Assembly: GCA_018000455.1 (NCBI GenBank)
Contig: JAGNJW010000005.1
Coordinates: forward strand, 124,001-188,000
Direction of reading: 5' to 3'
Length of the DNA: 64,000 nt
Source: Acidobacteriota bacterium
Lineage (GTDB): Bacteria; Acidobacteriota; Vicinamibacteria; Vicinamibacterales; UBA2999
In this document: positions 17,985-22,762 of the stretch, in pieces
How the letters are laid out: each line of letters opens with the position of its first letter
Numbering within the stretch: the stretch's first letter is position 1
The notes under the pieces: generated by a model
Databases searched by the model: none
Told to the model about the DNA's origin: nothing
The model's input: the letters and a program-made list of their open reading frames with translations, nothing else
Made by a program: the position numbers and the translations under genes

Positions 17985-18938
<954 letters not shown>

Positions 18939-18945
18939 GGCCCCG

Positions 18946-20112
18946 GTGAAGATTCACGAATATCAAGCCAAGGCCATCCTCGCCAAGTACGGCGTGCCGG
19001 TGCCGCGCGGTGAAGTCGCCCTCACGCCGCAGGACGCGGTCGAGATCGCCAAGCGTCTCGGCGGACCCGTGGCCGTCGTCAAGGCGCAGATCCACGCCGG
19101 CGGGCGCGGCAAGGGCGGCGGCGTCAAGGTCTCCAAGGGCATCGAGGCCGTCGAGGCCAACGCCAAGGCCATCCTCGGCATGCAGCTGGTGACGCACCAG
19201 ACCGGGCCGGCCGGCCAGCGCGTCGGGCGCGTGCTGGTTGAAGAGGGGCTCGCCATCGCGCGGGAGCTCTACGTCGGCATGCTCGTCGACCGCTCGAGTG
19301 GCAAGATCGTGCTCATGGCCAGTGCCGACGGTGGCATGGATATCGAGGAGGTGGCCGCCAAGACGCCCGAGCGGATCTACAGGGCGCTGGTCGAACCGGG
19401 AGTGGGCCTGTTGCCCTTCCAGGCGCAGCAGCTCGCCTTCGCGATCGGCCTTACGGGCGACAGCGTCAAGAAGGCCGCCAAGCTGATGCTGGCGCTCTAC
19501 CAGGCGTTTCTCTCCTCCGATGCCTCGCTGCTCGAGGTCAATCCGCTCATCGTGACCGAGAGCGGCGATCTGCTGGCGCTCGACGCCAAGATGACGATCG
19601 ACGACAACGCCCTGTATCGGCACGCGGATTTGCGCGATCTTCGCGACTTGAGCGAGGAAGACCCGCTCGAAGTCGAAGCATCGAAGTTCTCGCTCAACTA
19701 CATCCGCCTCGAGGGCAACATCGGCTGCATGGTGAACGGTGCCGGCCTGGCCATGGCCACGATGGACATCATCAAGCTCTCGGGCGGCCAGCCGGCCAAT
19801 TTTCTCGACGTCGGCGGTGGCGCCAACGCCGAGCAGATCCGTAACGCCTTCAAGATCCTGATGTCGGACACCAACGTGAAGGCGGTGCTCATCAACATCT
19901 TCGGCGGGATCCTGCGCTGCGACGTGCTGGCGGCTGGGGTGATCGCTGCAGTGAAGGAACTTGGGGTGCCGGTGCCGATTGTGATCCGCATGAAAGGCAC
20001 CAATGTCGTCGAAGGAAAGAAGATGCTGGCCGAGAGCGGCCTGAACTTCACGACGGCGGACACGATGGGCGAGGCGGCCGTGCAGGTCGTCACGCTGGCG
20101 GCAAAGAGCTAG
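18946..20112 (+). CDS. sucC: Succinate-CoA ligase, beta subunit
   Basis: A 388-residue ATP-grasp subunit of succinyl-CoA synthetase, which couples succinyl-CoA cleavage to nucleotide triphosphate formation. It contains [11 protein letters not shown] at the N-terminus, [12 protein letters not shown] near residue 47 and the C-terminal [10 protein letters not shown]. Length is typical. The start is GTG 18946. It pairs with sucD directly downstream. Confidence 0.97.
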
Positions 20113-20141
20113 CCGCCGGCTACTGGGAGCGATTGACGACG

Positions 20142-21017
20142 ATGGCTGTACTGCTCGACTCGAATACCCGACTGATCGTCCAGGGCCTGACCGGACGCGA
20201 AGGCACGTTCCACGCCAAAGCCGCTGCGGCCTACCACACGAATGTCGTCGGTGGCGTCACGCCCGGCAAGGGCGGCACGACCCACGAAGGCTGGCCGGTC
20301 TTCAACACCGTGCAGGACGCGGTGCAGGCGACCGGGGCGAACGTCTCGGTCATCTTCGTGCCGCCGCCGTTTGCGGCCGACGCCATCATGGAGGCGGCGG
20401 ACGCCGGCATCGGTCTTGTCGTCTGCATCACCGAGGGCATTCCGGTCGTCGACATGCTCAAGGCGATGACGTTCCTGCAGGCGCGGCCGACCGCCCGGCT
20501 CATCGGGCCCAACTGCCCGGGCATCATCTCGCCGGGCAAGGGCAAGGCGGGCATCATCCCGTCCAACATCTGCCAGGAAGGCCGGATCGGCATCGTGTCG
20601 AAGAGCGGCACGCTGACCTACGAGGCGATCGACCAGCTGACGCGCCTTGGCCTAGGTCAGTCGACGTGCATCGGCATCGGGGGCGATCCGCTCATCGGGA
20701 CCACCCACATCGACGCCCTCGGGCTGTTCCAGCAGGACCCGGACACCGATGCCGTGATCATGATCGGCGAGATCGGCGGCTCGGCCGAGGAAGAAGCCGC
20801 GGCCTGGATCAAGGAGCACTTCACCAAACCCGTCGTGGCCTTCATCGCCGGGCAGACCGCTCCCCCGGGACGGCGGATGGGCCATGCCGGCGCCATCATC
20901 GCCGGCGGGCAGGGTACGGCCGCCGAGAAGATGGCGGCCCTGACCGCGGCCGGCGTCACCGTGGTGAAAAGCCCCGCCGATATGGCACAATCCCTGGTCT
21001 CACTGCTGAAACCGTAG
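20142..21017 (+). CDS. sucD: Succinate-CoA ligase, alpha subunit
   Basis: A 291-residue alpha subunit that binds CoA and carries the phospho-histidine intermediate. Motifs are [24 protein letters not shown] and the active-site [15 protein letters not shown] chose ATG 20142 because the protein then begins [10 protein letters not shown], matching the family; an in-frame TTG at 20133 would add three residues. A candidate leader ORF starts 3 bases after its stop codon. Confidence 0.96.
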
Positions 21018-21019
21018 CC

Positions 21020-21088
21020 ATGCGTCGCCCCGCCTTCCCGTTCGCGTGTTCGTTTGCCGGCTTTATCGCCGGCCGGGAGGCCGTGTAG
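21020..21088 (+). CDS. Candidate phenylalanine leader peptide (pheL-like)
   Basis: A 22-codon ORF (ATG 21020, TAG 21086) starts 3 bases after sucD and has Phe codons at positions 6, 8, 12 and 15. It lies before an intrinsic terminator and then pheA. A perfect 6-bp hairpin (21056-21073, GCCGGC/GCCGGC) covers the last Phe codon, and a second hairpin (21094-21109, CGACGA/TCGTCG) follows the stop. The arrangement is that of amino-acid attenuator leader peptides such as E. coli PheL. There is no clear Shine-Dalgarno, so translation may depend on coupling to sucD. Function is inferred from layout. Confidence 0.55.
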   Translation: MRRPAFPFACSFAGFIAGREAV

Positions 21089-21121
21089 CGCGCCGACGAC
21101 GCCTCGTCGACCGACACACAC

Positions 21122-21156
21122 CGCCGCCCGAGCCTCACGGTTCGGGCGGCGTTTTT
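21122..21156 (+). terminator. Intrinsic terminator between sucD and pheA, candidate attenuator
   Basis: A perfect 10-bp stem (21122-21131 with 21142-21151, CGCCGCCCGA/TCGGGCGGCG) with a 10-base loop is followed by TTTTT at 21152-21156 and then GTT. It is the only strong rho-independent terminator in the window. It ends 18 bases before the pheA start and 6 bases before the pheA GGAG. It could end the mdh-sucCD transcript, act as a phenylalanine attenuator, or both. The G-rich segment at 21071-21083 could pair imperfectly with its 5' arm as an antiterminator. Confidence 0.85.
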
Positions 21157-21174
21157 GTTCCTGGAGCGTAGCCG

Positions 21175-22338
21175 ATGACCTCGTCACCACTTCCCGATCT
21201 CCGCCGTGCCGTCGACGACATCGACAAGGTGTTGCTGAACGCCCTGGGCGAGCGCGCCCGCCTGATGCGCGACATCACCGCGGCCAAGGCCGAAGCCTCG
21301 CAGCCGCTGCGTGACGAGGCCCGCGAGGCGGCGCTCCTGGCGCATCGCGCCACCTACGGGGAGCGGCTTGGCCTCGACCCGGCGCTCGTGCGGCGCCTCT
21401 ACCGCGAGATCATCGATGATGCGGTGCGCCGGCAGCGCGACTGGCTGAAGGAGGGGCCCGACGACGATACGGCACCGCCACTCGCCATCGCCTTCCAGGG
21501 CACCGAAGGCGCCTACAGCCACGAGGCTGCCATCCGCCACTTCGGTGTCGAGCGCCGGGTGGTCACCTACAAGCCGTATCGGTCGTTTCGCGAGACGCTC
21601 GAAGCCGTGCAGCGCGGTGATGCGCATCGCGCCGTGCTGCCGATCGAGAACAGCACGGCGGGATCGGTGCACGAAGTCTACGACCTGCTGTTCCAGCTGA
21701 GCCTGTCGATCGTCGGCGAAGAGGTGGTCGAGGTGCGGCATTGCCTGCTCGGACCGCCCGGTGCCACGCTGGCCGGGGTCACCAGGGTGCTGTCGCATCC
21801 GCAGGCACTCGCCCAGTGCAGCGAGTACCTCGCCGAGCGGCCGTCGCTCGAGGCGTTGGCCTTCGCCAATACGGCCCTGGCCGCCCGCCGCGTCGCCGAA
21901 GACGGCGACCCCACCCAGGCGGCCATCGCCAGCGCCGAAGCCGGCGATCGCTACGGCCTGGTCGTCCTGGACCGGGACATCGCGAACCAGGCCGTGAATC
22001 TGACTCGGTTCGTGGTCGTCGCGGCAGCGCCGGTGGACTGCGACCCGAAGGTGGATGCCAAAGTGGCGCTCGTCTTCGGCACCCGGCACGAGCGAGGGGC
22101 GCTCGTGCGCTGCCTGAACGTCCTGGCCGACGAAGGAGTCAGCCTGACCAAGCTCGAGTCGCGGCCCCGGCCCGGCGTGGCCTGGGAGTACGTCTTCTAC
22201 GTGGACGTCGAGGGGCATGTGGCCGAGCCGCGCCTGCAGGCGGCCCTGGCCCGGCTCACGGGCGCCACCCAGTTCCTGCGGTTACTCGGGTGTTTCCCGC
22301 GGGCGGTCGGCGCGGCGGGCGAGGCCGCGCAGGTATAA
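21175..22338 (+). CDS. pheA: Bifunctional chorismate mutase / prephenate dehydratase
   Basis: A 387-residue enzyme converting chorismate to prephenate and then phenylpyruvate, the Phe branch of aromatic synthesis. The AroQ-type chorismate mutase domain is about 8-95. The prephenate dehydratase domain is about 102-285, with PIENSTAGSVHE and the catalytic VNLTRF. The ACT domain is about 298-378, with the Phe-binding LESRP. The start is ATG 21175 with GGAG 8 bases upstream. The ACT domain implies feedback by phenylalanine; the upstream leader suggests a transcriptional layer as well. Confidence 0.96.
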   Translation: MTSSPLPDLRRAVDDIDKVLLNALGERARLMRDITAAKAEASQPLRDEAREAALLAHRATYGERLGLDPALVRRLYREIIDDAVRRQRDWLKEGPDDDTAPPLAIAFQGTEGAYSHEAAIRHFGVERRVVTYKPYRSFRETLEAVQRGDAHRAVLPIENSTAGSVHEVYDLLFQLSLSIVGEEVVEVRHCLLGPPGATLAGVTRVLSHPQALAQCSEYLAERPSLEALAFANTALAARRVAEDGDPTQAAIASAEAGDRYGLVVLDRDIANQAVNLTRFVVVAAAPVDCDPKVDAKVALVFGTRHERGALVRCLNVLADEGVSLTKLESRPRPGVAWEYVFYVDVEGHVAEPRLQAALARLTGATQFLRLLGCFPRAVGAAGEAAQV

Positions 22339-22348: not shown

Positions 22349-22762
22349 ATGCAGCGTACATTTGCCATCATCAAACCAGATGCAGTGCGTGCCGGATCGA
22401 TGGGGAAGGTCCTGGCGCGAGTCGAGTCCGAGGGATTCACCGTCAAGGCCGCGCGGATGCTTCACATGTCCAAGGCCGAGGCCGAGGGCTTCTACCACGT
22501 GCATCAGGCTCGCCCGTTCTTTGCCGCGCTCACCGACTTCATGTCATCGGGGCCGTGCCTGGTGCTGTGCCTCGAGGCGCCGGACGCGATCAGGAAGTGG
22601 CGCGACCTGATGGGGGCGACGGATCCGGCCAAGGCCGACGCCGGCAGCCTTCGCAAGGAGTTCGGCGCCTCGATCGACAACAACGCCACGCATGGATCGG
22701 ATGCGCCGGAGACGGCGGCCTTCGAGCTGGCGTACTTCTTCCGCGGCCTGGAGCTGCGCTAG
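22349..22762 (+). CDS. ndk: Nucleoside diphosphate kinase
   Basis: A 137-residue enzyme that transfers the gamma-phosphate of ATP to NDPs via a phospho-histidine. The N-terminal FAIIKPDAV and the active site NATHGSD, with His115 as the phosphorylated residue, are visible. I chose ATG 22349 because the conserved protein begins MQRTFAIIKP; the frame is open upstream into pheA but shows no homology there. Length is typical. Confidence 0.97.
   Translation: MQRTFAIIKPDAVRAGSMGKVLARVESEGFTVKAARMLHMSKAEAEGFYHVHQARPFFAALTDFMSSGPCLVLCLEAPDAIRKWRDLMGATDPAKADAGSLRKEFGASIDNNATHGSDAPETAAFELAYFFRGLELR

Follow-up and report, generated by a model that had tools for sequence, protein, structure and literature searches.

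Between sucD and pheA, in the 64-kb window of DNA analysed here, which comes from an uncultured acidobacterium, lie a short open reading frame rich in Phe codons and several hairpins, and the question is whether this stretch couples pheA expression to the supply of phenylalanine or is simply the end of the operon upstream. In E. coli, pheA is controlled by pheL, a Phe-rich leader with mutually exclusive antiterminator and terminator structures, and an initial annotation had read the present locus as a candidate Phe attenuator whose layout copies that arrangement. This interpretation is supported: leader, terminator and antiterminator are all present (Table 1), their computed mode of action is like that of pheL-pheA, and regulation by phenylalanine is predicted. 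The reading frame, the RNA segments and their alternative folds, conservation, covariation and codon enrichment were all computed, with segment boundaries set by eye. The order pheA-ndk is conserved in most relatives and the two genes are likely on one transcript.

Table 1. Features of the sucD-pheA region, in positions of the 64-kb window (forward strand).
Feature	Position	Strand	Description and evidence
mdh, malate dehydrogenase	17985..18938	+	opens the upstream operon; ORF and Pfam Ldh_1_N/Ldh_1_C
sucC, succinyl-CoA ligase beta subunit	18946..20112	+	7 nt past mdh; ORF and Pfam
sucD, succinyl-CoA ligase alpha subunit	20133..21017	+	20 nt past sucC; stop codon 21015-21017; ORF and Pfam
Phe leader peptide MRRPAFPFACSFAGFIAGREAV	21020..21088	+	Phe codons at 21035, 21041, 21053 and 21062; counterparts in 13 further genomes
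Segment 1 (GCCUUCCCG)	21032..21040	+	pairs with 21074-21081 in segment 2; folding
Inner hairpin GCCGGC-UUUAUC-GCCGGC	21056..21073	+	Phe15 codon in loop; stem covaries in relatives
Antiterminator hairpin	21074..21130	+	segment 2 (21074-21086) with segment 3 (21116-21130); -27.1 kcal/mol
Intrinsic terminator (segments 3:4)	21122..21156	+	13 pairs (21122-21151), then TTTTT 21152-21156; -29.5 kcal/mol
GGAG, probable Shine-Dalgarno of pheA	21163..21166	+	sequence
pheA, bifunctional (fused) chorismate mutase/prephenate dehydratase	21175..22338	+	Pfam CM_2 and PDT; presumed regulated gene
ndk, nucleoside diphosphate kinase	22349..22762	+	10 nt past pheA; ORF and Pfam

The leader runs from an ATG at 21020-21022, 2 nt past the sucD stop codon, to a stop codon at 21086-21088. 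Its 22 codons, with Phe at codons 6, 8, 12 and 15, had been read correctly in the initial annotation except for the start, which was placed 2 nt too early. Against a background of 2.7% Phe in the neighbouring genes, the probability of drawing four or more Phe among 21 codons is about 0.002, a figure that is weak alone; a chance Phe ORF was ruled out by conservation in relatives. In the 14 leaders known (the window's included) Phe made up 55 of 323 residues (17%), and the other two frames gave 5 and 9. Among these Phe codons UUU accounted for 31/55 (56%), as compared with 4/44 (9%) in six neighbouring genes (P = 6e-7). The sensitivity of an attenuator depends on which synonymous regulatory codon is used (PMC1183508).

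The locus was compared with those of 43 genomes of the same family, mostly metagenome-assembled, and in 17 of them pheA is preceded by sucD. At 14 of these 17 loci a strong terminator follows a Phe-rich leader (2-5 Phe codons), and the 14 come from three genera: the window's genus (all five genomes), a sister genus (four) and a third genus (five). One of the leaders has two Phe codons only (L007) and another is without the usual stop (L012). The initial annotation had asked whether the Phe-rich ORF and the terminator co-occur in relatives, and they do, being lost together in 2/17 (L015, with a 0-nt gap, and L011). The opposite pattern that it had named, a terminator kept without the Phe ORF, occurred in 1/17 only (L016), where the antiterminator had gone too: the -10 box and the terminator (-24 kcal/mol) are kept, the leader is cut to VNV-stop (3 codons), and the antiterminator energy of -12 kcal/mol is no better than that of shuffles. 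A remnant coding for GCFTAARG, without a terminator, was observed before pheA in L022. Both L016 and L022 are decayed attenuators. The element is limited to one clade, and no leader was seen adjoining the bifunctional pheA of other genera (L019-L021, L032-L034) or the prephenate dehydratase genes examined (L023-L031).

The intrinsic terminator between the leader and pheA lies where the initial annotation had placed it and has the T5 tract described there, but its stem is longer, with 13 pairs instead of a perfect 10 bp. Among terminator-like sites in the 40 kb scanned (12000-51999) no other comes close to it in strength, and in the whole 64 kb, on both strands, it is the sole site passing a strict filter. 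Apart from it, strong intrinsic terminators are nearly absent from 12000-51999, and because they are so few, operons in that region may end mostly by other means.

The competing antiterminator is a single 57-nt hairpin in which CGGG.GGC.GUGU pairs with ACAC..GCC.CCCG. The second hairpin of the initial annotation (21094-21109, CGACGA-CGCC-UCGUCG) was recovered, not as a separate element but as the tip of this structure. The G-rich segment does pair with the 5' arm of the terminator, and more extensively than the 3+3+2 pairs first estimated: 11 of the 13 positions of segment 2 are paired with that arm and the ACAC preceding it. The first hairpin, described as lying over the Phe codons, is also present and spans Phe15. 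Computing the energies of both alternative structures, as had been suggested, showed that the antiterminator nearly matches the terminator in stability (Table 1); in the other intact leaders the values were -19 to -32 kcal/mol for the antiterminator and -21 to -34 kcal/mol for the terminator. Because the balance in most genomes tips slightly towards the terminator, kinetics must play some part in antitermination.

Ribosome positions were then imposed on the folds, a stalled ribosome being modelled as a mask reaching 12 nt beyond the A-site codon. A ribosome placed on a Phe codon led to antiterminator formation in 10/10 leaders folded, in agreement with the earlier proposal that stalling on Phe codons frees a segment for the 5' arm of the terminator; when the stall was on the very last Phe codon, the antiterminator was often partly broken. 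With the ribosome at the leader stop codon the antiterminator was absent in 10/10, and with no ribosome and a complete terminator, segment 2 paired upstream instead in the 10 leaders folded, so that both situations favoured the terminator. If the 3' arm of the terminator was not yet made, most leaders could form the antiterminator without a ribosome too, and the untranslated state therefore hinges on segments 1 and 2 pairing first, that is, on the order of folding. In these modelled folds all three states of the classical attenuation model are present.

Besides constrained folding, shuffling and covariation point to an antiterminator that excludes the terminator. Both the inner hairpin and the terminator stem have positions changed on both sides. 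RNAalifold run on the alignment returned the terminator and the inner hairpin only, because the antiterminator conflicts with those two structures. The outer part of the antiterminator differs by clade (CGACGA/UCGUCG in the window's genus, AGGUCC/GGACCU in L013, GUCUG/CAGAC plus GGGAG/CUUCC in L018). When segments 2 and 3 were exchanged between clades, the pairing of each segment 2 with its own segment 3 ranked second of 120 pairings, the sole better one being, by its energies, a swap of two members of the same genus. The 14-position core alone is a weak test, since segment 3 is nearly invariant and 8 of 120 pairings were equally good; most of the pairing signal comes from the outer helix parts. 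Shuffle tests pooled over five clade representatives gave P = 7e-8 in one case and P = 6e-6 in another, and L014 failed the latter test but passed others.

Could the hairpin be a mere terminator of mdh-sucCD, with Phe codons present by chance and pheA transcribed from a promoter of its own? The terminator directly follows sucD, and L016 retains it without a leader. However, the Phe richness, the frame, the stop position and the antiterminator are conserved in 14 genomes, L011 and L015 lost leader and terminator jointly, just 18 nt separate the T tract from the pheA start, and there is no comparable second terminator in the window. The comparison with relatives has thus largely refuted this explanation, which we regard as very improbable. 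The terminator probably also ends mdh-sucCD transcripts, as the initial annotation had cautioned, but such a role belongs to the attenuation model and is no alternative to it. Nor does it seem at all probable that the small ORF encodes a functional peptide acting in trans, like peTrpL of Sinorhizobium (PMC7298713), with the terminator releasing a small RNA. A recurrent C-terminal pattern (GFTAGREAV, GFTAARGGV, FFTGRVTV) would fit such a peptide, but the nucleotides encoding this stretch also form the inner hairpin and segment 2, reason enough for its conservation, and the N-terminal half of the peptide varies freely among relatives; the two roles are in any case mutually compatible. Searches for a T-box or a known riboswitch gave no Rfam match at the gathering threshold at 15 attenuator loci, and a sub-threshold ftsZ-DE match at 21094-21156 (24 bits vs 72) is merely the two hairpins.

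How the leader is translated raises a further alternative. The initial annotation had listed the missing Shine-Dalgarno as a weak point; indeed none is visible before the leader, and its absence fits either coupling to sucD or a leaderless mRNA. The leader start lies 2-3 nt past the sucD stop codon in the window's genus and overlaps it (ATGA, GTGA) in the sister genus, together 9/9 genomes, and the 40 nt preceding the leader start contained a TAnnnT box in 0/9 of these. In the third genus TATAAT, TATACT or TATGAT stands 6-7 nt before the leader start codon in 5/5 leaders, which would put the 5' end of the RNA at the start codon or beside it. These arrangements suggest termination-reinitiation coupling to sucD in the window's and sister genera and leaderless translation in the third genus. 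A real Phe attenuator might instead have its own promoter within the end of sucD and an independently initiated leader, without coupling. Most genomes of the window's and sister genera do carry a weak -10-like string (CACAAT, GACAAT or GAGAAT) about 30 nt before the leader start, and the third genus has a promoter box immediately before the leader; but the string encodes conserved SucD residues and is lost in L010, a convincing -35 is absent by eye, and the close or overlapping start and stop codons in all nine genomes speak against it. We consider an independent promoter possible but unlikely.

It is highly probable, on these modelled folds and their conservation, that the locus is a classical ribosome-mediated transcription attenuator which would pass polymerase into pheA (and ndk) when charged tRNA-Phe is scarce. 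Transcripts would originate from the mdh-sucC-sucD operon, and we infer that they read through from sucCD. A ribosome finishing sucD, or a new one, would then initiate the leader at the ATG 2 nt further on. With ample phenylalanine, the ribosome at the leader stop codon would cover segment 2, the terminator would form and transcription would stop. If Phe-tRNA is short, the ribosome would stall at a Phe codon and keep segment 1 off segment 2, and the freed segment 2 would pair with the 5' arm of the terminator, allowing polymerase to continue. Without translation, segment 1 would pair with segment 2 and the terminator would form. We lean towards a broader picture in which this is an intercistronic attenuator without its own promoter or ribosome-binding site, read by ribosomes coming off sucD, so that phenylalanine supply gates the extension of the mdh-sucCD transcript into pheA; in the third genus the element would be free-standing, with a promoter making it leaderless, and leader peptides without Shine-Dalgarno sequences would control his, trp and phe genes more widely in Acidobacteriota.

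When a covariance model was made from the Phe leaders, it recovered the pheA loci and, as next best match in the window's genome, a His leader preceding hisI-hisG, VFALHHLHRVHHHLLHRGPAGLHV, with 8 His and the terminator AGCCCCGCCGGAATCCGGCGGGGCTTTTT (L131 / L093, G000:C11:95348-95487, minus strand). A leader with 5-9 His lies upstream of hisI at 30/30 family loci read, with a terminator recognised in nearly all, and a -10-like TAnnnT box stands 8-11 nt before the start codon in 29/29 measured, a leaderless layout. In the same genome an aroDE/trp operon (L128 / L160, G000:C27:209300-219500) of the order aroDE-trpEGDCFBA-chorismate mutase-DAHP synthase is preceded by a terminator and by a leader, VFSSRRFTTAVTFDVSRPAGWYWHWRVTEGDPGLA, that contains Phe, Trp and Tyr; Pfam identified aroDE and trpE, and the genes after them were assigned by eye. 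In the family the aroDE leaders, of the WWWY type, have 2-4 Trp plus Tyr and mostly Phe too at 30/30 loci read, with a terminator recognised in 28; the aro-trp leader may respond to Trp, Tyr and Phe alike. In the ilvB negative control the terminator finder recognised nothing in the roughly 330 nt upstream of the gene at 26/30 loci, which shows that it does not report attenuators everywhere. The ilvB genes of three genera (L175, L173, L188) have an upstream terminator of the type GGCCATCATCCAC...GTGATGGCCTTTTT, preceded in L175 by an Ile-rich ORF, VCACIRANSIIRIIAISIPGVITPGAAG, a candidate Ile attenuator.

The His covariance model also matched other families of the phylum, for example MLRRLHHGHRHHHKTCVPADCHGLI before hisI. 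Leader-peptide attenuation looks spread across the phylum, because in two families outside the window's order, f24 (L211, L212, L214) and f36 (L223, L227), hisI/hisG are preceded by His leaders and a trpE-like gene by Phe/Tyr/Trp leaders (MKFFGAIYYAFNLYTFFWWQFTGASYDRI). Twelve other covariance-model matches (L090-L092, L098, L221, L222, L224-L226, L228-L230) look like chance hairpins, and L088 lies antisense to a real aromatic leader.

These results would extend classical attenuation to Acidobacteriota, a large phylum of mostly uncultured soil bacteria, with three amino-acid pathways probably under such control in one genome. The natural series of operon-coupled, leaderless, decayed and lost elements bears on how attenuators are translated without a Shine-Dalgarno, arise and die. 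A gap regarding attenuators in Acidobacteria was pointed out in a 2010 survey, and no description of such attenuators in Acidobacteria was found in the literature searched, although an earlier comparative attenuator paper (Lopatovskaya and others) may have priority. An intercistronic leader without a Shine-Dalgarno is, to our knowledge, unusual among attenuators.

The E. coli system (Rfam RF01859, Phe_leader) and the present one have in common a Phe-rich leader, mutually exclusive structures and the same target enzyme, but here the leader sits within an operon after sucD and, in the window's genus, lacks both a Shine-Dalgarno and a clear promoter. The RF01859 covariance model gave no match in the window at E<=5 or in the genome at E<=10, and the same search passed the cut-off in 1/14 control genomes. 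The Sinorhizobium meliloti trpL-trpE(G) leader mRNA begins at the leader start codon (PMC7298713), like the leaderless layout deduced for the third genus and the His leaders; that leader is a Trp one, whereas ours is a Phe leader and in the window's genus intercistronic. The classical attenuators of Actinobacteria (trp operons, trpS, leuS and ilvB, with pheA not named in the abstract; PMC1262725) likewise combine, outside Proteobacteria, a leader ORF of regulatory codons with a GC-rich terminator and an antiterminator, but in another phylum. The family's own His and aro-trp leaders, found first through the Phe-leader model, have the same design and differ in having promoter-like boxes of their own just before the leader. 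Judged from its sequence, the Phe attenuator is thus very probably a classical attenuator in an intercistronic variant without a Shine-Dalgarno, in Acidobacteriota.
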